NCBI GenBank assembly: GCA_030425705.1
Contig: JAUHZU010000005.1
Location: forward strand, 1-64,000
DNA: 64,000 bases
DNA from: Phycisphaerae bacterium
GTDB lineage: Bacteria > Planctomycetota > Phycisphaerae > Phycisphaerales > Phycisphaeraceae
Reading direction: 5' to 3'
Shown: positions 43,377 through 53,364 of the stretch, piece by piece
How the letters are laid out: each line of letters starts with the position of its first letter
Position numbering within the stretch: position 1 is the first letter of the stretch
Position numbers and translations under genes: made by a program
Notes under the pieces: model-generated
The model's database searches: none
The model's input: the letters and a program-made list of their open reading frames with translations, nothing else
Told to the model about the DNA's origin: nothing

Positions 43377-46300
43377 CTAGTTCAGGTGGCGGTTGTACAG
43401 CTCCTGGAACCGGGGCTTGAAATCGGGGCCGCCCAGGTCCTCGCTGACCCGGTTTTCCAGCATGCGGACCTTGTCGGGGATCTCACGGGCCGGGTTGCCG
43501 CCGACGTAGTCGAGGGTCTGCAGCGCCTTGAGCCAGGCCTCCCAGAACCGGCGGGGCTTCTCGCCGGGCTGGCTGTTGTAGTAAAGGATGACCTTGTAGT
43601 AGAGGTCCAGCGCGGGGCTGATGGTCTCGACCGAGCGGTCGCCGGTCTTGCGGGCCGCGGCGATGCGGCAGTCGGCGGTGAGCAGAACGACATCGAAGTT
43701 GTTGGGGAACTCCTCGAGCCAGGCGTCCATGAGCGGCACCGCGTCGCCGGGCCGGTTGGCCAGGAGCAGCGCCCGGGCGAGGCCCAGCTCAAAGGGCAGC
43801 AGCCGGCTGCCGGTGTAGCCCTGGTTCTTGGCCCAGGTGACCAGCAGCTCGCTGAGCTGGGTGGCGACGCCGGCGAGGCGGGTGATCTGCTGCTCGGCGT
43901 CCTGCCGGTTGATCGGGAGCAGCGCCTTGTCGCGGACCTGCTCGTAGTTGCGGATCTGCTCCTCGATGCGTTTCAGCACGCCGTTGACGACGCCGGCCGC
44001 GACGTCCGGGTAGCTGGCGATCATCGACCGCGCCTCGTCGCCGATGCGGTCGAGCTGGCCCCCGGCCACCAGCGCAAGGATGCGGCGCTCCTGCGCGGAC
44101 TGGATCAGCCCGTCGAGCTGCTCCCGCGCCTTGGCCGGGTCGGCCTGGGCCTGCACAAGGCCGGCCAGCGGGCCCTCGGGGTTGTAGTCGATCTCGAAGC
44201 CGTCGAGCAGGTCCAGCGCGGCCTCGGCGTCACCGCCGTCCGACTCCATCGCCGCGATGGCGATCAGCGCCCCGCCCTGCGCCGTCGCCGCGGAGAACCG
44301 CCGACGCGGCTCGCGGCCGTTCTCCGCCTCGTCTTCGGCATCGATCATCAGCAGCTCGGCCACACTCAGCAACTCGCGGCGCATCCGCTCCTGCTCCTCG
44401 CGCAGCCGGCCCAGCTCGTGCTCCAGGTTCTCCCGCGCGACCTCCGTGTCTTCCGCCGCGCCGGTCATCTCTTTGCGGTGGAGCTCGTCGCTCAGGTTGT
44501 CGTACACCTTCTGCATCGCCAGCACCATCTGCCGGCGGGCCTCGAAGTAGTCCGGGTGGCCCTGGGGCATGCCCTCGTACACGGCGATGGCCTTCTCCAG
44601 GTCGCCGGACAGCTCGTAGACGAAGAACCCGGTGTAGACCCGCAGGGCGTGGGCCGTGTCGTTGCTCGGCCAGTAGCGGTACATCACGTCGATCGCGGCG
44701 CGGTACGCGTCGCGGTAGTCGCTGTTGGTCACGCCGCCGGGGCCGGTGTTCGTGAGCTGGTCGAACTGCTGCAGCAGCGTGACCGCGAAGCCGGTGGCCT
44801 GCTCGGCCTGCTCGGTGTCGGGCAGCTCGATGCCGATGCGTGCCCAGAGCTGGGCGACCTCGAAGTACGGCCCGATGCTGTCGCCGCCCTGCCCGCCGTA
44901 GTACTTCGCCAGCTCCGCGAGGTAGTACTTCGCGAAGCCCAGCGACATCAGCCCCCGGGCGCGGACGGGTGCGTCGATCGTCTCGTCCGTCAGCGTCTGG
45001 TTGAACCGCACGGCCGTCGTCAGGTCGCCGCGGGCCTGTTCGAGCAGGCCGGCACGGCGGCGTTCCTCACGGTCGCGCTCGGCGGGGATCGCGATACTCT
45101 CCAGCGGCGCATTGTTCGCCAGGTAGATCAGCTCGTTGGACGGCACCGAGCCACGTTCGGTCATCATCTGGCCGACGCCCATGCGCACCATCGGCGGCAG
45201 CACCGCGGGGTCCTCGGCCGGGTCGACCTGCTCGGCCCACCGGCGGTACAGGAACGGGCCGAAGAAGCTCGCCGGGTCGTTGTTGACCAGCGGCAGGTAC
45301 GGCTTCTCGTAGGCCTCGGCCAGCAACGCCATCCGGTCCGCCCCACGCGCCCCCTCCGCGGGCTTGAGCAGCAGCCGGTAATGCAGGTCCGCGACGATCA
45401 GCCGAGGGTACCCGTTGCCGTTGGCCAGTTGCTGGGTCACGAAGGTGTGCTTGGCCATCCCCTCAAGGATCTCGGTCGCGGTGTCCAGCTCGCCCACGGC
45501 CTCGCGCCCGCGTGCCTTCGCCAGAGACGCAAGAAAACCCTGCCAGCTATCCGACGCACCGGTGATCACCGGGTCCAGGTACGCATCGACGCCCTCGTCC
45601 ACCCGGTCCGGGTCGTCCATCCGCACCAGCGCCCGGCCGCCCAGGAGCTTGATCGACAGCCCGACGCCCGGGTCGTTCTGCAGGTTGCCGGCGGCGACCC
45701 CCTCGACCTGCTCGAGCAGACGCAGACGCTCCTCCGCGGGGGTCCGGGCCTGGTTCCGCATCGCGGGGTTGTTGCCCAGCGAGCGGTAGTAGGTGTGCGA
45801 GTCCGGCAGCGTCGCCACGTAGTACGCGGCGTGCGCGAACCAATAGGGCGTGCGGCGCTGGCCGTACTCCTGCCGCAGGTCGAAGAAGATGTTCATCTCT
45901 TCCAGGCGGGCACGCAGCGCGCCGCCGTCGGCCCCCAGCCGGCTGGTCAGCGACTCGATGCGGGACCGCGCGTCCGCCGCCAGCTCCAGCGCCTGCACCG
46001 CCGAACGCTCGAACGCCTCTGCCTGCTCGGGCGTCGCCACACCGAAGTCGTAGAACCACGACGCGTTGTTGAAGTACGTCGGCAGGTAGGTGTCCAGCAG
46101 CATCGCCGCCAGGTCCGTCTGCCACATCGGGACCCGCTCGTCCTGCGGGTTCTCGTCGATCAGCTTCTGCTGCTCCTCCAGCATCTGCTCGTACGACGCC
46201 CGGCTCTCGAGGAACAGCGCCTGAGCCCGCTCGGGGTCGACACCGTTCTGCGCGACCGCACGCTTGAAGCTGTCGCTCGCCGCGAACTCGTGCAGCGCGA

Positions 46301-46529
46301 CCTGCAGCTGCCGCTGGGCGATCGGTTCGAGGCCGCCGCGTTCGTCCACCTGCTCGACGAACCGGCCGAGCAGCTCGGACATCCCCGCCTCGCGCAGGCC
46401 CTGGATGAACTGGTCGTCGTTGCGGTAGAGCTGCTCCATCTGCGCCGACGCGGCGGGGCCGACCACCGCCGACACCAGCACCAGCGGGGACAACAACCAA
46501 CGGCGGAGAGCGGATCGGGTCACGGGCAT
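43377..46529 (-). CDS. Large secreted TPR-like repeat protein of the ExbB/ExbD-vWA cluster
   Basis: A 1050-residue protein with a signal peptide (LLSPLVLVSAVVGPAASA) and no later membrane helix, so periplasmic. It is almost all alpha helical, with irregular TPR-like pairs such as LRVYTGFFVYELSGDLEKAIAVYEGM and FELGLARALLLANRPGDAVPLMDAWLEE. Residues about 690-730 form a coiled coil (ARENLEHELGRLREEQERMRRELL). I do not recognise a named family. It is the last gene after ExbB and two ExbD genes on the same strand (71 bases apart) and may be a periplasmic scaffold for that motor. Homologues in planctomycete ExbB/D clusters would be expected. Confidence 0.75.
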   Translation of the reverse strand: MPVTRSALRRWLLSPLVLVSAVVGPAASAQMEQLYRNDDQFIQGLREAGMSELLGRFVEQVDERGGLEPIAQRQLQVALHEFAASDSFKRAVAQNGVDPERAQALFLESRASYEQMLEEQQKLIDENPQDERVPMWQTDLAAMLLDTYLPTYFNNASWFYDFGVATPEQAEAFERSAVQALELAADARSRIESLTSRLGADGGALRARLEEMNIFFDLRQEYGQRRTPYWFAHAAYYVATLPDSHTYYRSLGNNPAMRNQARTPAEERLRLLEQVEGVAAGNLQNDPGVGLSIKLLGGRALVRMDDPDRVDEGVDAYLDPVITGASDSWQGFLASLAKARGREAVGELDTATEILEGMAKHTFVTQQLANGNGYPRLIVADLHYRLLLKPAEGARGADRMALLAEAYEKPYLPLVNNDPASFFGPFLYRRWAEQVDPAEDPAVLPPMVRMGVGQMMTERGSVPSNELIYLANNAPLESIAIPAERDREERRRAGLLEQARGDLTTAVRFNQTLTDETIDAPVRARGLMSLGFAKYYLAELAKYYGGQGGDSIGPYFEVAQLWARIGIELPDTEQAEQATGFAVTLLQQFDQLTNTGPGGVTNSDYRDAYRAAIDVMYRYWPSNDTAHALRVYTGFFVYELSGDLEKAIAVYEGMPQGHPDYFEARRQMVLAMQKVYDNLSDELHRKEMTGAAEDTEVARENLEHELGRLREEQERMRRELLSVAELLMIDAEDEAENGREPRRRFSAATAQGGALIAIAAMESDGGDAEAALDLLDGFEIDYNPEGPLAGLVQAQADPAKAREQLDGLIQSAQERRILALVAGGQLDRIGDEARSMIASYPDVAAGVVNGVLKRIEEQIRNYEQVRDKALLPINRQDAEQQITRLAGVATQLSELLVTWAKNQGYTGSRLLPFELGLARALLLANRPGDAVPLMDAWLEEFPNNFDVVLLTADCRIAAARKTGDRSVETISPALDLYYKVILYYNSQPGEKPRRFWEAWLKALQTLDYVGGNPAREIPDKVRMLENRVSEDLGGPDFKPRFQELYNRHLN

Positions 46530-46600
46530 GCCTCTTAGATAGCGTCAATTCTGCGCGGAGCCGCCTCCGCATGGTAGCGCGGCGGGCCGCGCCGGGGCGG

Positions 46601-47113
46601 TCAGTTCGGCGTCGCGAACCCGACCTTCTCCAGGTCCGCGCGGGTGCACGCGTTGAACACGTTCACCACGTGCTGCCAGCGGACACGGCCCTGCGGACGG
46701 ATCTGGATATCCGAGTCCTTCTCGATCCGATTGCTCGCGAGCTGCGCCGCGAGGTAGCCGTGCAGTTCGCTCGCGCCGCCCGGAACCGCCCGCTGGTCCA
46801 CCAGGATCGAGTAGGTGACCCCGTCGTCGGCCGACACCAGGTCGATGTAGACCGGCGGGTCGGGCGTCTGGATCTCTTTAGGTGGCGCGCTCTGGCCGGG
46901 CATCGTCGCCTTGATCGTGCCCTCGTCGATCATGAAGTTCGCGGTGATCACGAAGTAGATCAGCAGCTGGAAGATCACGTCGATCATCGACGTGAGCTGC
47001 AGCTCCATCTCCGGCTGGTCCTTGCGGCGCTTTTTGCGCTGCGAGGTGTGGTGGACCACCTGCGTCTCTTCCGCGTCGTCGGGGACGGCCGGGATGTCGT
47101 TGGGTTCAGCCAT
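46601..47113 (-). CDS. exbD: ExbD/TolR-family biopolymer transport protein (2)
   Basis: A 170-residue ExbD/TolR protein with a charged cytosolic N-terminus, one helix (MIDVIFQLLIYFVITANFMI) and a periplasmic domain. The essential Asp of the family is the D in TSMIDVIFQLL. It ends with ALF-type variants of the usual domain (IQIRPQGRVRWQHVVNVFNACTRADLEKVGFATP). It pairs with ExbB to convert proton flow into motion. It follows the first ExbD gene by seven bases. The N-terminal 40 residues, rich in basic amino acids, are longer than in most ExbD proteins. Confidence 0.93.
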   Translation of the reverse strand: MAEPNDIPAVPDDAEETQVVHHTSQRKKRRKDQPEMELQLTSMIDVIFQLLIYFVITANFMIDEGTIKATMPGQSAPPKEIQTPDPPVYIDLVSADDGVTYSILVDQRAVPGGASELHGYLAAQLASNRIEKDSDIQIRPQGRVRWQHVVNVFNACTRADLEKVGFATPN

Positions 47114-47120
47114 GTTCAGC

Positions 47121-47663
47121 TCAGTCCTTGGGCATGTACGCCACGATGTCGATCAGCGTCTCGCCCTTCTCGGGGTCCAGCCCGGCGTCGGCCATCGCGC
47201 TCTGCAGCGCGTCCATCACCGGCACGACCTGGTAGTAGTAGATCGTCGCGTCCACCCGGAAGATGAAACGCAGGTCGCCCTTCGCCCGGCGGGCGTTGAT
47301 CGCCTGCTCCATGAACTCGCGGAAGTTGGTGAGGTACTCGGGGTCGTCGACCGGGAACGTCCGCCCGCCGACCTTCACCGACTCCGCCTCGCCCTGCCGG
47401 CCCAGCACCTGGCCCACCGGCGTGCCCGGGCCCGGGTCGCCCTCCCACATCTCCTTGGGCACGATGTTGATGACCAGGCGGTTCTCTTCCGCCACCTGCC
47501 GGGTCTCGGGCTTCTCCAGGTCCGGCAGCTTCAGCGGCGGGGCCTCGTCCGTCACGATGTTGTTGACCAGCAGGAAGAAGACGATCAGCAGGAACACCAC
47601 GTCGATCAACGGCGTGATGTTCAGCGTCGGCTTCACGGCCCCGCGTTTGGTGACATTCGACAT
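47121..47663 (-). CDS. exbD: ExbD/TolR-family biopolymer transport protein (1)
   Basis: A 180-residue ExbD/TolR protein. It begins KPTLNITPLIDVVFLLIVFFLLV, where the family Asp is in PLIDVVF. The periplasmic domain is longer than usual and contains a loop about 60 residues from the helix (EMWEGDPGPGTPVGQVLGRQGE) before RFIFRVDATIYYYQVVPVMDALQSAM, the typical last part. Two different ExbD proteins per ExbB suggest a hetero-dimeric rotor shaft, as ExbD acts as a dimer. It lies 58 bases after exbB. Confidence 0.94.
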   Translation of the reverse strand: MSNVTKRGAVKPTLNITPLIDVVFLLIVFFLLVNNIVTDEAPPLKLPDLEKPETRQVAEENRLVINIVPKEMWEGDPGPGTPVGQVLGRQGEAESVKVGGRTFPVDDPEYLTNFREFMEQAINARRAKGDLRFIFRVDATIYYYQVVPVMDALQSAMADAGLDPEKGETLIDIVAYMPKD

Positions 47664-47721
47664 AGCGGCTTCTGCGAGGGATCAGGGGGTCAGTGCAACG
47701 GTCACACAATCACGCACGGGC

Positions 47722-48522
47722 TCAGTCGGGCTTGGGCGTGGCGCGCGGGCGGTCGGCCCGGCCGGGCGCGCCCGAGGCCGCGGACTTCTTCTTCCCGCTG
47801 GGCTTGAACGGCGCGATGATCTCCTCGACGATCAGGATGCCTTCGGCACAGTGCGCGTCGATCTTGTTGCGGATCAGCGAGTACGCCGATAGCGCCGGGA
47901 TGGCGACGATCAGCCCCCAGAAGGTGGTGACCAGCGCGGTGGAGATACCGCCGGCCAGCTCGACCGGGTCGGCCCCGCCGCCGCCGGAGACCAGCGCCTG
48001 GAAGGCGACGATCATGCCGAACACCGTGCCGAACAGCCCGATCATGGGCGAGATGTTGCCCATGACGTTGAGGTACTCGATCGGCCGCAGGAGCTTGACG
48101 GCCTCGGCGTCGCCGGCCTCCTCGACGGCGCGCTCCATCGCGGCGTAGCCGTTGCTCGCCTCGTTGAGCGCGGCGCTGACGACCTGGCCCAGGTACGACT
48201 CGTCGTCCTGCGCGAACTCGATCGCCTCGCGGTACTTCTTCTCCGCCAGCAGGGCCTCGACCTCGTCGCGGGTCTCCTCGGGGAGGATCTGGTTACGGCG
48301 GTGCTTGAAGATCAGCATCAGCGTGAAGCCCATGACCGTCGCGGACATCACCAGCAGCAGCAGGATGATGAGGTTGCCCAGGATCGGGCCGTCGGGCCAG
48401 AAGAACGCCTTGAACCAGCTCTGGGTCTCGGCGGCGGGCTGGTCGTCTTGCGCAAATGCGGCGGCGGGCCACAGGGCGACCCCGGATAGGGCGAGGCTCA
48501 GCTTGGTCAGGGTCGTTCGCAT
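47722..48522 (-). CDS. exbB: MotA/TolQ/ExbB-family proton channel protein
   Basis: A 266-residue ExbB-like protein with a cleavable signal peptide (LSLALSGVALWPAAAFAQ) and three helices: residues about 48-70 (GNLIILLLLVMSATVMGFTLML), 168-192 and 210-230. The conserved proton channel domain is clear in NVMGNISPMIGLFGTVFGMIVAF and GGISTALVTTFWGLIVAIPAL, with the family Thr residues. Together with the two ExbD proteins it should form a proton-driven motor. The N-terminal signal peptide variant is known in other bacteria. It lies 89 bases after the secreted helical-repeat gene. Confidence 0.95.
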   Translation of the reverse strand: MRTTLTKLSLALSGVALWPAAAFAQDDQPAAETQSWFKAFFWPDGPILGNLIILLLLVMSATVMGFTLMLIFKHRRNQILPEETRDEVEALLAEKKYREAIEFAQDDESYLGQVVSAALNEASNGYAAMERAVEEAGDAEAVKLLRPIEYLNVMGNISPMIGLFGTVFGMIVAFQALVSGGGGADPVELAGGISTALVTTFWGLIVAIPALSAYSLIRNKIDAHCAEGILIVEEIIAPFKPSGKKKSAASGAPGRADRPRATPKPD

Positions 48523-48611
48523 CGGTAGGCGTCTCGGGGAGGAAGGTGCGGGGAAAGTTCAGGCACGGCCGCCGCGGCACTCGTCGGCAGACCGGGTTGA
48601 CTCGGGGGGTC

Positions 48612-49772
48612 TTACTCTTCGGGCTCTTCGTCGTCGGGGGTCGGCAGCGGCTCGTCGATGATCTGGTAGTACCGGCGGTAGTACTGCGGGTAGGTCTCCG
48701 GGTCGTCGGCGAACGACAGCGACAACCCGTCGTCGAAGAGCAGCTTCTGGTAGAGGTCTTCGCGCCCGATCGCGCGGTGGACCAGCGCGACCTCGAGCCG
48801 GGCCGGCGCGATGAGCGAGGTCGTGCCCGGTTTGTAGTGGACGACCAACCGCATGAAGGTGAGCCCGGCATCGAGGTAGTCGTCGCGCTCGCCGGTTTCT
48901 TCGGCGATGGCGAGCTGGGCCCGGCCGAGGATAAACAGCTTCTGCGGCAGCGCACTGGGGTTTCTGAGCCAAGGCGTGATCGCCTCGATCGCGCCGGCGG
49001 GGTCGCCCTCGATCAGGAGGTTGACCGCGGCCCACCGCTCTTCCGCGTCGTCCTCGTCGAGCAGGTCCCAGATCTCGTTAGGCAGGATCACCGCCGACGC
49101 CGTGCGGTCCGGGCCGTCGCCCGCGCCGGGGGTGCCCGGGGCGGGGTCGATGTCGGGCATCTGGCCATCACCCACGACCAGCCGGAGGTAGCCCTGCAGC
49201 GCGGCGCGCGAGGGGCCCTCGGTGTCTTCGATGACGTCCATGATCTCCGTACGGATCCGGCCACGCTGCGCTTCATTCGCGTCCTCCAAGGAGGCGACCG
49301 GCGGCTGGCTGAGAAAATACGGGTCGGCCCCGTCCCGCGCGATGGCCAGGTAGACCTCCGCCGCGTCGGTCGGCTCGCCGCGCTGGTCCAGCGCCTGAGC
49401 GAGGTAGAACCGGGCGTAGTTGCGGACCCAGGCGGCGCTGGATTCCTCGATCACTTCGGTGAACGCGCCGACAGCGCCGCGGTAGTCCTCGGCGACAAAC
49501 AGCTCGTACGCGTCAAAAAACTTTGGGTCTGTGTCGAGCTTGAGCGGGCCGACCTCGTCCAGCGGGATGCGGCGTTCGCCACCCGTCGGCGGGCGGTACA
49601 CCAGCTCGCCATCGTCGACGCCGACGATCGTGACGTTCAGGGGCTGGCCGTTGCGCTCGATCTCGTCCGCCTGTGCCCCGGCCGCGGTCAGGAGGAGCAG
49701 CACACACGCCAAGGCCCACCGGCGGAGCCGATTCGTAAGCCGCGGGGTCGTGCGCGTGAGGCGTTGGGGCAT
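48612..49772 (-). CDS. Secreted helical-repeat protein of the ExbB/ExbD-vWA cluster
   Basis: A 386-residue protein with a signal peptide (RWALACVLLLLTAAGAQA). A short beta domain follows, VTIVGVDDGELVYRPPTGGERRIPLDEVGPL, then helical TPR-like pairs including FDAYELFVAEDYRGAVGAFTEVIEES and FYLAQALDQRGEPTDAAEVYLAIA. I cannot name the family. It lies between the first vWA gene (22 bases upstream) and exbB, all on one strand, so it is probably a periplasmic partner of the same machine. The C-terminus is very acidic (PDDEEPEE). Confidence 0.7.
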   Translation of the reverse strand: MPQRLTRTTPRLTNRLRRWALACVLLLLTAAGAQADEIERNGQPLNVTIVGVDDGELVYRPPTGGERRIPLDEVGPLKLDTDPKFFDAYELFVAEDYRGAVGAFTEVIEESSAAWVRNYARFYLAQALDQRGEPTDAAEVYLAIARDGADPYFLSQPPVASLEDANEAQRGRIRTEIMDVIEDTEGPSRAALQGYLRLVVGDGQMPDIDPAPGTPGAGDGPDRTASAVILPNEIWDLLDEDDAEERWAAVNLLIEGDPAGAIEAITPWLRNPSALPQKLFILGRAQLAIAEETGERDDYLDAGLTFMRLVVHYKPGTTSLIAPARLEVALVHRAIGREDLYQKLLFDDGLSLSFADDPETYPQYYRRYYQIIDEPLPTPDDEEPEE

Positions 49773-49794
49773 CGGGGTCTCCGTCGTCGCGGGG

Positions 49795-50856
49795 TCAGCG
49801 CAGGTTCAGCTCGCGTTCGTCCAAGAACTTGTACGTCCCGCCGGTCTCGTTGGCGATCCGCTCGAGCGTGCCGGTGAGCCCGGCACGGATCAGCGGGTCG
49901 ACGTACACGAACTGGATCGTGTTGATCTTGGCGGGTGGGGTGAAGTCGTTGGCCTCGGCGATGGACTCCATCAGGTCGGCCTGGAAGATCTCGTGCTGGG
50001 TTGCGCCCTGGCCCCCGCCGGTGAGGTTGTCCGAGAGCAGGAACACCAGCTGCGGGCGGTAGGACAGGGCCTGCTCGATCGCCGCGAGCGCGTGGGCCGA
50101 GCCCCGGCCGACCGACTCGACGTTGTGGTTGTCCAGGGTGATCCAGGAGGACGACTGCTGCTTGAACTCGGCGGTCGCGGAGCGGAGCCCGGTGCGTCGC
50201 CCGCCGCCGGGCACCTCGAAGACGCCCTCGCCGGTGAAGAAGATAATCGTGAACTTCTGGGCTTCCTTGAGCTCGTTGATGACGCGCTTCAGCTCGTTGA
50301 TCACGAACGGGAGCACGCCGACCATCGAGCCGGAGGCGTCGACGACGAAGGCGATGTTGCGTGCGTTGCCGCCGTTGCCGAAGACGTTGGTGCCGAACTC
50401 GCCGTTGCCGTTGGTGTTGCCGAAGGTCCCGCCGGTGATCCCGCCGGAGCTGGTCAGGCCGATGGAGGTGGTTTGGATGTTGGTGTTGTTGACAACCGGG
50501 GTGGGCGGGTTGGTGGTCGGGTCAACCGTGGGCGTGGTGCGGGGTGACTCGGAGGACTCTTCCTGGACCGACTCGATGGGGTCGGGGGCGCCGGGGGTAT
50601 CAGAGAATGTCGCGTCGGGGATGATGCCCTCTTCCTCGGGCTGGAGGATGACCTGCCAGACAAAGAAGAACGCGGCGACGACGAGGACGACGTGGAAGAG
50701 GATGGAGATGCCCCAGGGCATCAGGGCGACGAGGGTGTCGCTGATCTCGTCACCGATCGTTTCCTCGTCGTGGAACTCGTCGTCGAGGTCGGGGTTCGGC
50801 CCGAGCGGCTGGCCGGGGGCCGGGGGTCGGGTCTCAGCAAAACCGAGGTGGAACAT
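49795..50856 (-). CDS. TonB-like membrane-anchored vWA protein (1)
   Basis: A 353-residue protein. After about 45 cytosolic, acidic residues comes a single helix (47-70, PWGISILFHVVLVVAAFFFVW) that holds S51-x3-H55, the TonB/TolA motif used to couple to ExbB/ExbD. Residues 75-165 form a Ser/Pro/Thr/Asn-rich linker, and 166-353 a vWA domain with MIDAS residues D173, S175 and S177 (VVDASGSM) and D276 in LLSDN. The combination suggests that the motor encoded downstream acts on a metal-dependent binding domain in the periplasm. It is close to the second vWA protein upstream in order and length. The evidence for the motor link is inference from this motif plus gene order. Confidence 0.85.
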   Translation of the reverse strand: MFHLGFAETRPPAPGQPLGPNPDLDDEFHDEETIGDEISDTLVALMPWGISILFHVVLVVAAFFFVWQVILQPEEEGIIPDATFSDTPGAPDPIESVQEESSESPRTTPTVDPTTNPPTPVVNNTNIQTTSIGLTSSGGITGGTFGNTNGNGEFGTNVFGNGGNARNIAFVVDASGSMVGVLPFVINELKRVINELKEAQKFTIIFFTGEGVFEVPGGGRRTGLRSATAEFKQQSSSWITLDNHNVESVGRGSAHALAAIEQALSYRPQLVFLLSDNLTGGGQGATQHEIFQADLMESIAEANDFTPPAKINTIQFVYVDPLIRAGLTGTLERIANETGGTYKFLDERELNLR

Positions 50857-50984
50857 GGCACATTCCTCCGCGTGACGGCGGGCAGTCCGGTCCGGGGTCG
50901 GCCGGCGGGGTGTGTTCGACCGCCGAGGGCGGCATCGCCGGCGGGGCTGCCGGTCGGTCCAAGCCGGAGCCGGCAGGGGTTGCC

Positions 50985-51014
50985 GGCCGTCTGCGCCGGG
51001 GGCGCAGACCGGCC
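50985..51014. repeat. Intergenic stem-loop between the two vWA genes
   Basis: A 9-bp perfect stem, extended to 13 pairs with one bulged C, encloses a GGG loop (50998-51000). A perfect AACAC-T-GTGTT palindrome lies beyond it at 51025-51035. It may serve as a terminator or attenuator within the minus-strand cluster; no T run is present. Confidence 0.5.
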
Positions 51015-51107
51015 TGGGCCGGTGAACACTGTGTTATTGAACACGATCGGCGCCGAATTGTCCAGCGAATCCGCCCGTACGGGCCACAGGGCCCGCCGAG
51101 CACCCCG

Positions 51108-52106
51108 TCAACGCAGTTGCAGCACCCGATCGTCCACAAACCGGTAACGCCCGCCGGTCTCCTCGGCCAGCCGGCGTAGTGTGCCTGCTCGGCCGTAGGC
51201 CTCCTGCGGATCGGGGTAGACAAACTGCACCGTGTGGATCACAGTTGCCCGGTCCCCGCGGGCAGACATGACGCGCTCAACCAACTCGTCGGTGCCGATC
51301 TCGTACACGCCATGCCCGGTGATGTTGTCCGACAGCAGGATGACCGCGTCGGGTCGCAGCGAAAGAGCCAGTTCGATCGCGGGGAGGGGCGAGGTCGAGC
51401 CGCCCGGTGAAACCGTATCCAGCCAGGCGATCGTGCGGGCGACTTGATCGGTGTCGGCCGAGCGGAGCCCGCGGCGGTCCTGGGTGAGCACCTCCCCGTC
51501 TCGGAAGAAGACCACGGCATAGTCGTACGGCCGGGGGTGCCGGCCCGACGCGGCCTGGCGCTGCTGCTCGGCCTTGGCTAGCTCGCGCAGCAAACGCTTG
51601 AGCTCGTTGACCACCAGCGGGAACGTGTCGATCAGCGAGCCCGAGGCATCGATCACGAACACCGTCCGCGGCGGGACCGAGCCAAACACGCCGGACCCGG
51701 GATCGAGGCCGGTGTCGGTCCACGGCGCGGGTCGTGCATCGGGAAGGGTAGGCGGCGGGCTGCCGAGGATCGGCCGGTTAGAGCCGGGATTGCGCAGGAT
51801 CGGCTGGGGCACTTCCAGTTGCTGCAGCGCGGGGGAAGTGTTGCGCAACGGCGCTGGCGTGGGGTCTACCGGGGTGTCCTGGACCGGCGACACGTTCGGC
51901 GACGGCTGGAAGGAGACCTCACCATTCCACGCCTCTTCTTCCTGAGTCAGCACGGTCGTCCACACCAGGAAGACCGCGAGCACGACCAGAAGGACATGGG
52001 CCCCGATCGACACGGCCCAAGGCATCAGCCCCGCCAGCGTCTGCCGGACCTCGCGGCCGAAAGAAGCGTCATCGCGGTCGCGCGGGGCGTTGGGCGGCGT
52101 AGGCAT
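51108..52106 (-). CDS. TonB-like membrane-anchored vWA protein (2)
   Basis: A 332-residue paralogue of the next gene. The single helix at 29-52 (PWAVSIGAHVLLVVLAVFLVW) again has S33-x3-H37. A Pro-rich linker (60-140, including repeats of PILRNPGSN-like Pro/Asn text) leads to a vWA domain with D153, S155 and S157 (VIDASGSL) and D260 in ILLSDN. The preferred ATG is 52106; a longer frame extends to 52403 but its sequence is not protein-like there. It is the first gene of the cluster on this strand and 251 bases before the first vWA gene. Both vWA proteins together imply a hetero-oligomer or a duplicated function. Confidence 0.82.
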   Translation of the reverse strand: MPTPPNAPRDRDDASFGREVRQTLAGLMPWAVSIGAHVLLVVLAVFLVWTTVLTQEEEAWNGEVSFQPSPNVSPVQDTPVDPTPAPLRNTSPALQQLEVPQPILRNPGSNRPILGSPPPTLPDARPAPWTDTGLDPGSGVFGSVPPRTVFVIDASGSLIDTFPLVVNELKRLLRELAKAEQQRQAASGRHPRPYDYAVVFFRDGEVLTQDRRGLRSADTDQVARTIAWLDTVSPGGSTSPLPAIELALSLRPDAVILLSDNITGHGVYEIGTDELVERVMSARGDRATVIHTVQFVYPDPQEAYGRAGTLRRLAEETGGRYRFVDDRVLQLR

Positions 52107-52278: not shown

Positions 52279-53364
52279 ATGGCCAGACGCACGCCCCAAC
52301 GCCCGCTCCGCCTGGCCTTCATCGGCACGGGCCTGGTCGCCGGGCTGCAGATCGACTCGCTCAAACGCGTGCCGGAGATCGAGGTCACCGCGCTGTGCGA
52401 CATCGACCCCCAGGCCCTGGCGAGGACGGCGGAGAAGACCGGGCTGCCCGCGTCCGCGTGCTTCGCGGACTACAAGAAGATGCTTAGACACGCCGAGTAC
52501 GACGCGGTGAGCGTGTGCACACCCAACGGCGCGCACCTGGCCTGCACGGTCGCCGCGCTCAAGGCCGGTGCCCACGTGCTGGTCGAGAAGCCGATGGCGC
52601 TCAACGCCGGGGAATGCCGGAAGATGATGGCCGCCGCGGAAGAGGCCGGCCGGAAGCTGGTCGTCGGGTTCCAGTTCCGCTACGACCCGAAGACACAGTA
52701 CCTCCGCCGGCAGGTCGAGGAGGGGGTGCTGGGCGACATCGTGTTTGGCCGGGTCCAGGCCCTGCGCCGTCGGGGCATCCCCAACTGGGGGGTGTTCGGC
52801 CGCAAGGACCTGCAGGGCGGCGGGCCGCTGATCGATATCGGCGTGCACATCCTGGAGATGGCCCACTACACGATGGGCAGCCCCCGGCCCGTGGCCGCGT
52901 CGGGCCTGGCGAGCACCTACCTGGGCAACCGCAAGGAAGCGACCCGGACCGTCTGCAAGTGGCCGGGCTGGGACTATAAGACGTACACGGTCGAGGACCT
53001 GGCGGTCGGGCACGTCCGTTTCGAGAACGGCGCGGTGATCCACCTGGAGGCCTGCTTCGCCGGGCATTTCGAGAAAGACGTGTGGGACTTCCAACTCATG
53101 GGCACGCGGGGCGGCTGCCGGTGGGACGGGGCCCAGGTCTTCACGGACCGGAACGGGTACCAGGTGGACGAGACGCCCGGCTACCTGCCGGACATGGACA
53201 TGTTCACGACCGGCTTTTCCGCGAAGCTGGCCCAGTTCGCCGACCACTGCCTGAACGACGCCCCCGCGATGGTGCCGGCCGAGCACGGGCTGATGGTGCA
53301 GCAGATGCTCGACGGGGTGTACCGCTCGGCCGAACGCGGGGGCAAAGAGGTCGCGATCCGCTGA
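52279..53364 (+). CDS. Gfo/Idh/MocA-family oxidoreductase
   Basis: A 361-residue NAD(P)-dependent oxidoreductase. The Rossmann motif is IGTGLVAGLQI near residues 15-25, with VTALCDIDP as the nucleotide-ribose strand, and the family motif EKPMALNAGECRKMM follows at about 102-116. The C-terminal alpha/beta domain carries VLGDIVFGRVQALRRRG and GGGPLIDIGVHILEMAHY, with the catalytic His in that last block. Such enzymes oxidise or reduce sugars, inositols or related compounds. No signal peptide is seen, so it is cytoplasmic. It is divergent from the second vWA gene. Confidence 0.93.
   Translation: MARRTPQRPLRLAFIGTGLVAGLQIDSLKRVPEIEVTALCDIDPQALARTAEKTGLPASACFADYKKMLRHAEYDAVSVCTPNGAHLACTVAALKAGAHVLVEKPMALNAGECRKMMAAAEEAGRKLVVGFQFRYDPKTQYLRRQVEEGVLGDIVFGRVQALRRRGIPNWGVFGRKDLQGGGPLIDIGVHILEMAHYTMGSPRPVAASGLASTYLGNRKEATRTVCKWPGWDYKTYTVEDLAVGHVRFENGAVIHLEACFAGHFEKDVWDFQLMGTRGGCRWDGAQVFTDRNGYQVDETPGYLPDMDMFTTGFSAKLAQFADHCLNDAPAMVPAEHGLMVQQMLDGVYRSAERGGKEVAIR

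Follow-up and report, generated by a model that had tools for sequence, protein, structure and literature searches.

A seven-gene cluster with motor and vWA genes

We analyzed a window of 64,000 nt from a Phycisphaerae bacterium (family Phycisphaeraceae; assembly GCA_030425705.1, contig JAUHZU010000005.1, positions 1 to 64,000 of the forward strand), in which seven minus-strand genes running from position 52106 to position 43377 encode vWA2, vWA1, a 386-amino acid (aa) tetratricopeptide repeat (TPR) protein, ExbB, ExbD1, ExbD2, and a 1050-aa TPR protein (Table 1). The proteins vWA1 and vWA2 combine a membrane helix carrying the motif S-x3-H with a von Willebrand factor A (vWA) domain. We read the cluster, with a probability of roughly 80%, as an ion-driven motor of the ExbBD/TolQR type equipped with two vWA force transducers.

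The intergenic gaps from vWA2 to the 1050-aa TPR gene measure 251, 22, 89, 58, 7, and 71 bases, and vWA2 starts with an ATG at position 52106 that is preceded by GGAG. Pfam searches assigned ExbB to PF01618 (E = 1.4e-28) and the two ExbDs to PF02472 (E = 6.3e-16 and 1.5e-17), with matches of the vWA and TPR proteins being weak. A fold search of the 386-aa TPR protein was uninformative, returning general TPR matches with low TM-scores, the best of which was BamD (E = 2.1e-4). An initial annotation, made by a model from the sequence alone, had placed the seven genes at the same coordinates and had described one ExbB, two ExbDs with a transmembrane Asp (D21 and D45, which we confirmed by eye), and two secreted helical-repeat proteins, which correspond to the TPR proteins with signal-peptide-like N-termini (by eye).

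Table 1. Genes of the window cluster and related loci (window positions, or positions within the L-numbered locus)
Feature	Position	Strand	Remarks
vWA transducer 2 (vWA2, 332 aa)	51108..52106	-	S33-x3-H37 in the helix; then linker and vWA domain; opens the cluster
vWA transducer 1 (vWA1, 353 aa)	49795..50856	-	S51-x3-H55; helix 34-70; low-confidence linker ~71-165; vWA ~166-346
TPR protein (386 aa)	48612..49772	-	Signal-like N-terminus; small beta region, then TPR helices
ExbB/TolQ-like motor subunit (266 aa)	47722..48522	-	Ser60 aligned to E. coli ExbB Ser34
ExbD/TolR-like subunit 1 (ExbD1, 180 aa)	47121..47663	-	Transmembrane Asp21; PF02472
ExbD/TolR-like subunit 2 (ExbD2, 170 aa)	46601..47113	-	Transmembrane Asp45; PF02472
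Large TPR-repeat protein (1050 aa)	43377..46529	-	Signal-like N-terminus
Ala-x3-His transducer copies	L036:8354-10515; L037:10542-12029; L041:10534-11766; L130:6326-7804
Second motor-vWA locus, same genome, contig C5	L118:8298-13958		ExbB 310 aa, ExbD 138 aa, TPR 843 aa, vWA 583 aa

Anatomy of the vWA proteins

The AlphaFold2 model of vWA1 agrees with the architecture proposed in the initial annotation (one helix, a Pro-rich linker, and a vWA domain), showing a single long helix, a low-confidence linker, and a vWA fold, the last of these modeled well: from residue 161 on, 13 of 20 ten-residue blocks had a predicted local distance difference test score of at least 90. The best structural matches were the vWA domain of inter-alpha-inhibitor heavy chain 1 and chain I of 9c4f, named in the fold search as inter-alpha-trypsin inhibitor heavy chain H4 (Z = 17.6, root-mean-square deviation 2.2, 161 residues). 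This fold rules out a TonB or TolA with a degraded C-terminus. Since the Pfam vWA scores of vWA1 and vWA2 lie below the curated cut-offs, the vWA assignment rests on the fold.

The two proteins share 35% identity, and the Ser and His residues of their helices (Table 1) occupy the positions given for them at the outset. Both also possess DxSxS and a later Asp, as the initial annotation stated when it called the metal ion-dependent adhesion site (MIDAS) intact; however, an alignment of the two places an Ala of vWA1 opposite the Thr of vWA2, so the set is not complete in vWA1. In vWA domains, DxSxS, a Thr, and a later Asp form the MIDAS. In a set of motor-linked vWA frames that was not picked by this motif, DxSxS was present in 79 of 91.

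Conservation of the S-x3-H anchor

If the helices dock on the motor, S-x3-H may be expected in homologs, and its conservation there had been posed beforehand as a test of the idea. We scored 228 distinct vWA frames for an S-x3-H motif that lies ahead of the vWA domain and has a hydrophobic stretch after it; the set comprised 167 linked frames (ExbB within 5 kb), 35 unlinked frames (5-kb flanks without ExbB), and 26 ambiguous ones. The motif was found in 156 of the 167 linked frames, in 20 of the 35 unlinked frames, and in 13 of the 26 ambiguous frames, all counted among relatives rather than independent draws, as are the ExbB counts below. By comparison, block shuffles of the linked frames gave a mean of 11.6 and a maximum of 17, and control patterns were infrequent (S-x2-H, 1; S-x4-H, 8; H-x3-S, 3; A-x3-H, 7), which rules out chance occurrence. 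When 161 helices were anchored on the His, Ser stood at −4 in 154, with the runner-up column being Trp at −7 (118 of 161).

The 11 linked frames that lack the scored motif include A-x3-H copies (two in L036 and one each in L037, L130, and L041), short or cut frames (L085 and L146), frames whose S-x3-H fails the hydrophobicity cut (L081, L118, and L043), and L196. L036 has Ala in place of Ser in both copies, whereas in L037, L041, and L130 the change is confined to the upstream copy (Table 1). Ten of the 15 unlinked frames in which the motif is missing are at least 566 aa long, and the single one scanned among the 15 is a protein of the genome under study with an FHA domain, a transmembrane segment, and a vWA domain (L120).

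Two alignments are to be read with their sampling in mind, whereas the count over the 228 frames is unconditional. Alignment A1 holds 24 rows out of 98 frames preselected for S/A-x3-H, so its invariant His is no evidence of conservation. Alignment A2 contains 67 of 83 frames (L182 included) plus the two window proteins; the 16 frames omitted were partial, were unlinked, or had no clear motif. This selection biases the invariant S and H of A2, and the invariant D-S-G-S columns of this alignment are circular because the loci were found by the DxSGS pattern.

The motor side of the predicted dock

In the E. coli cryo-electron microscopy structure, TonB Ser16 and His20 contact ExbB Ser34 and Trp38, and Trp38 touches Pro190 (PMC12215075). 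At the position of Ser34, 137 of 142 ExbBs whose loci have linked vWA genes carry Ser, and this position is the best conserved of positions 22 to 46 (the runner-up scoring 0.71). Likewise, Pro190 is kept in 135 of 142, and Thr148 and Thr181 are kept in all 142. E. coli TolQ has Ser at the Ser34 position as well, so this residue is common to Ton and Tol motors and not special to the vWA family. The transmembrane Asp was present in 287 of 288 ExbDs, a weak count given the permissive pattern used. The window ExbB carries a signal-peptide-like N-terminal extension ahead of its first transmembrane helix (TM1), which recalls the long ExbB of Serratia marcescens as described in PMC9008036.

Distribution, gene order, and duplication of the vWA arm

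A vWA1 relative (E ≤ 1e-5) was found in 140 of 150 genomes of the class, more than for any other family that we searched for. We examined the best locus of 80 of these 140 genomes, drawn from the stronger matches, so the following rates need not hold for the remaining genomes. Profiles built from those loci detected ExbB in 70 of the 80 and ExbD in 67 (71 and 68 of 81 with the window), and a relative of the large TPR protein was present in 59 of 81, window included. Of the 59 loci flanked by 7 kb or more on each side, 53 had ExbB, 52 had two or more ExbDs, 45 had the large TPR gene, 28 had the small TPR gene, and 18 had two or more vWA frames. The recurring gene order is V(V)-t-B-D-D-T (vWA, small TPR, ExbB, ExbDs, large TPR). 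No ExbB was found in 6 of these 59 loci. Three of the six (in genomes G013, G032, and G046), together with the first locus of G003, which also lacks ExbB and lies at a contig start, come from genomes that have a second vWA locus beside ExbB and ExbDs. In five more genomes, inspected at one locus each, the vWA gene was linked in G008, G017, and G134 and unlinked in G097 and G102.

A second set of 80 loci, found by the vWA (DxSGS) pattern in the GTDB collection and sharing part of its genomes with the class set, contained ExbB in 59; several of the other 21 end close to the match. These loci belong mainly to Phycisphaerae or to unspecified planctomycetes, and the order B-D-D-V occurs in Aquisphaera insulae (L191), L196, and L203. 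Adjacency of vWA genes to exbBD in other planctomycetes, the further point on which the initial annotation had staked its reading, is therefore seen in most loci examined.

Two linked vWA frames of at least 250 aa are present in 23 of the 142 loci with any such frame; the second frame of L043 belongs to a neighboring second system, which leaves 22 of 142 loci with a tandem of the S-H type. The locus L132 of strain ZRK34 (CP050848) has the tandem form. A quick vWA-domain tree places many pairs as sisters inside one locus or one small clade, and on it the label "upstream copy" requires 14 changes, at least 11 of them forced by starred branches, compared with 19.2 in shuffles. These sister pairs and label changes make the duplication look like a repeated one, and the arm appears to have been duplicated several times, for which we claim no exact number. 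The upstream copy of the window, vWA2, clusters with the upstream copies of L037, L041, and L130 (Shimodaira-Hasegawa-like approximate likelihood ratio test [SH-aLRT], 92), and the other copy lies near the other copies of the same loci in a weakly resolved group.

Proposed mechanism and physiological role

The mechanism put forward in the initial annotation, an ExbBD motor acting through S-x3-H-anchored vWA proteins, gains support from these sequence tests, and docked, motor-driven vWA transducers are well supported at that level. With regard to docking, force, stoichiometry, partner, and the ion used, we infer the following scheme. Like TonB and TolA, each transducer would place its single transmembrane helix against the outer face of the ExbB pentamer, where the Ser and His of the helix would meet the Ser conserved in TM1 of ExbB. 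The transducer would be turned or pulled as ions pass the Asp of ExbD and the two Thr residues of ExbB. By way of the flexible arm, its vWA domain would reach a partner on the far side of the periplasm, and this partner may be the TPR proteins or an outer membrane protein. The two different ExbDs and two different vWA proteins may form one asymmetric motor with two unlike arms; since two TolA molecules sit on one motor in an E. coli TolA-TolQ-TolR structure, two arms per motor are possible.

Several observations weigh against a motor-driven transducer. The presence of S-x3-H in 20 of 35 vWA frames without ExbB in the examined stretch means that the motif is not limited to motor-linked genes. 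The initial annotation had identified it with the motif of TonB and TolA, and its Ser and His are indeed kept in the family, but the Leu and second Ser of SHLS (Ser-x3-His-x6-Leu-x3-Ser) are not conserved in the 161 anchored helices. A motor-box-like motif follows the helix in just 49 of the 161 anchored frames (shuffle mean, 20.4; maximum, 31), a modest excess that leaves most frames without it by the pattern used. On the motor side, Trp38, which belongs to the E. coli dock, is retained in 3 of 142 ExbBs and mostly replaced by Val, Ile, or Leu in the others, and the Glu176 position is occupied by Thr (65), Ile (30), or Val (25). With Ser34, Pro190, Thr148, and Thr181 kept while Trp38 and Glu176 have changed, the dock seems partly retained and partly remodeled. 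The unlinked frames and the loss of Trp38 would also suit vWA proteins that are anchored beside the motor but not driven by it, as assembly factors or sensors that keep S-x3-H by common descent. We consider this quite improbable, given that the helix is otherwise divergent, yet Ser at −4 is far better kept than the runner-up Trp at −7, and that the matching Ser stands out on ExbB TM1. We retain the motor-driven transducer as the preferred reading.

Profile searches of the 150 class genomes found the TonB C-terminal domain (TonB_C) in 68, the plug domain of TonB-dependent receptors in 58, and TolB_N (PF04052) in 1; this single TolB profile gave no match in the genome under study and none in the 126 more complete class genomes. 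Set against the 140 genomes with a vWA1 relative, these counts are the basis for the idea that the machine is the class's substitute for Tol-Pal, with the vWA arms pulling an outer membrane or peptidoglycan partner to hold the envelope and the TPR proteins replacing CpoB. The 386-aa TPR protein agrees with this through a weak YbgF-type match (E = 4.2e-4, below the cut-off). Nevertheless, the scarcity of TolB comes from one profile, which is no proof of absence, and Pal was not searched for; linkage to ExbB was looked at in 80 of the 140 genomes and, at one locus each, in five more; and the Pfam-assigned neighbors of the cluster, an aldo/keto reductase gene downstream on the same strand (43282-42212) and a GFO/IDH/MocA oxidoreductase gene upstream on the opposite strand (52279-53364), are not envelope genes. 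We hold this substitution as a tentative possibility only. Its boldest form, which we infer with still less assurance, makes the vWA machine the general envelope force machine of the class, replacing Tol-Pal, with two ExbD types and often two unlike, independently duplicated arms that would pull on a scaffold of TPR or outer membrane proteins instead of TolB-Pal. Surface adhesion or gliding, in which vWA domains would be metal-dependent binders moved by the motor, accords with the vWA fold and the frequent DxSxS and is suggested by analogy to Myxococcus in section 8 of PMC12204202; it is nonetheless unlikely, with the MIDAS set of vWA1 being incomplete, no surface partner recognizable, and an arm that begins in the inner membrane having to exit through the outer one. 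About equally unlikely is energized uptake of large substrates through an outer membrane complex other than TonB-dependent receptors: the excess of vWA1 relatives over receptor plugs leaves many genomes where no TonB-dependent receptor was found for the machine to serve, but Pfam recognized no transporter gene in the operon and nothing links the cluster to a substrate. For the transfer of energy to the outer membrane in double-membraned bacteria with a patchy Ton system and little sign of Tol-Pal, this motor-transducer set, with its vWA relative widespread in such a class, is a concrete candidate, which the predicted dock of S-x3-H on Ser34 makes testable by point mutants.

Other motor and vWA loci of the same genome

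The genome contains a second motor-vWA locus on contig C5 (Table 1), with the order B-D-TPR-V and one ExbD. Its 583-aa vWA protein has SVVLH, an S-x3-H motif, near the N-terminus and a TIGR03788-like C-terminal part, which is probably YfbK-like. The 843-aa TPR protein matches the YbgF model above the cut-off. For this second system, relatives at E < 1e-90 occur in 7 of 150 class genomes, own included. The C5 vWA protein is barely alignable with vWA1 (E = 0.022). In a quick ExbB tree of 57 chosen rows without bootstrap, the C5 ExbB groups with the ExbBs of two other loci of its kind, which are near-identical to each other (SH-aLRT, 100), apart from the window type.

Contig C12 encodes a protein (L120:6824-10657; C12:111323-115156) that combines an FHA domain and a hydrophobic helix with long acidic and proline-rich stretches and with a vWA domain belonging to the same family; it has no S-x3-H and no ExbB within the examined stretch. 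On contig C14 (L119:9380-11910), a MotA/ExbB-like gene is followed by a gene for a PDZ protein, with a RecQ-like helicase nearby (by eye); PADLOC gave weak matches to ZorA (best E = 3.2e-7) and ZorB (E = 8.6e-4). The genome also has one TonB_C, beside a TonB-dependent receptor on a contig other than that of the window, and, by eye, a pair resembling MotA and MotB (with a MotA match) in a neighborhood of flagellar-looking genes. In two related genomes (L043 and L137), the two vWA systems adjoin each other in divergent orientation; the examined stretch of L137 yielded no vWA frame of the second system.

Comparison with known systems

Although the initial annotation knew of no described system with this layout, the kind had already been predicted: in June 2025, Williams-Jones et al. 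(PMC12204202, section 8 and legend of Fig. 4) proposed, for planctomycetes among others, vWA force transducers that are linked to a motor and carry a helix of the TonB/TolA type; tolQ-like, paired tolR-like, and TPR genes accompany them, and AlphaFold3 docks them via the His. According to these parts of the paper, no deletion phenotype has been reported. Our literature searches, limited to open-licence PubMed Central papers, turned up no other paper that describes this layout. PMC12204202 is cited in a 2026 review of Ton and Tol motors, and a word search of the review's text returned no vWA.

Like the window proteins, the published transducers have a transmembrane helix with a Ser-His motor motif, a disordered linker, and a C-terminal vWA domain, in synteny with tolQ-like, paired tolR-like, and TPR genes. 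They differ in that the vWA gene of the transducers from the Planctomycetes-Verrucomicrobia-Chlamydiae (PVC) group often lies downstream of the TPR, tolQ-like, and tolR-like genes, whereas the vWA genes of the window lie upstream; in that the full SHLS is stated for many members, whereas the window family keeps S-H only; and in that the window has one small vWA domain (vWA1 model) and a second, large TPR gene. The fold of the published transducers is said to resemble YfbK. The paper also contrasts its transducers with a second, mostly heterologously paired family, whereas the S-H type described here is itself in tandem in some loci. The exact layout, with tandem upstream vWA genes, one small vWA domain, and two TPR genes, does not appear in the portions of the PMC12204202 text cited above.

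That second family, TPH-vWA (Fig. 4c and d legend of PMC12204202), shares with the window a vWA gene with a tolQ-like gene and paired genes, but it has no tolR/exbD and a pore helix with Asp, in contrast to the two exbD genes and S-x3-H helix of the window; the helices of vWA1 and vWA2 have no Asp in their hydrophobic core. Zorya and the other defense systems listed in PADLOC were rejected, since ExbB had one weak ZorA2 match (E = 3e-4) and the remaining six proteins matched nothing at E = 0.001. TonB-ExbBD and TolA-TolQR share the motor type, the S-x3-H helix, and a long flexible arm, but the arms of the window end in vWA domains, in an operon without TolB or a TonB-dependent receptor.

The C5 locus resembles the window cluster in its S-x3-H near the N-terminus, vWA domain, and motor and TPR genes and departs from it in gene order, its one ExbD, its TIGR03788-like part, and the position of its ExbB in the tree; it fits the published vWA-transducer description better than the window cluster does, though with one ExbD. 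The window cluster, filed as a variant of the published transducers for want of the Leu and second Ser of SHLS in its family, appears to be a branch of its own within the kind predicted in 2025 and not a new principle, because its vWA genes lie upstream, are sometimes duplicated, and encode one small vWA domain and the S-H half of SHLS only. New here are the S-x3-H counts, the conservation of ExbB Ser34, the spread of vWA1 relatives through the class, and the repeated-looking arm duplications, which extend the 2025 prediction by an apparent second branch with conservation on both faces of the predicted dock.

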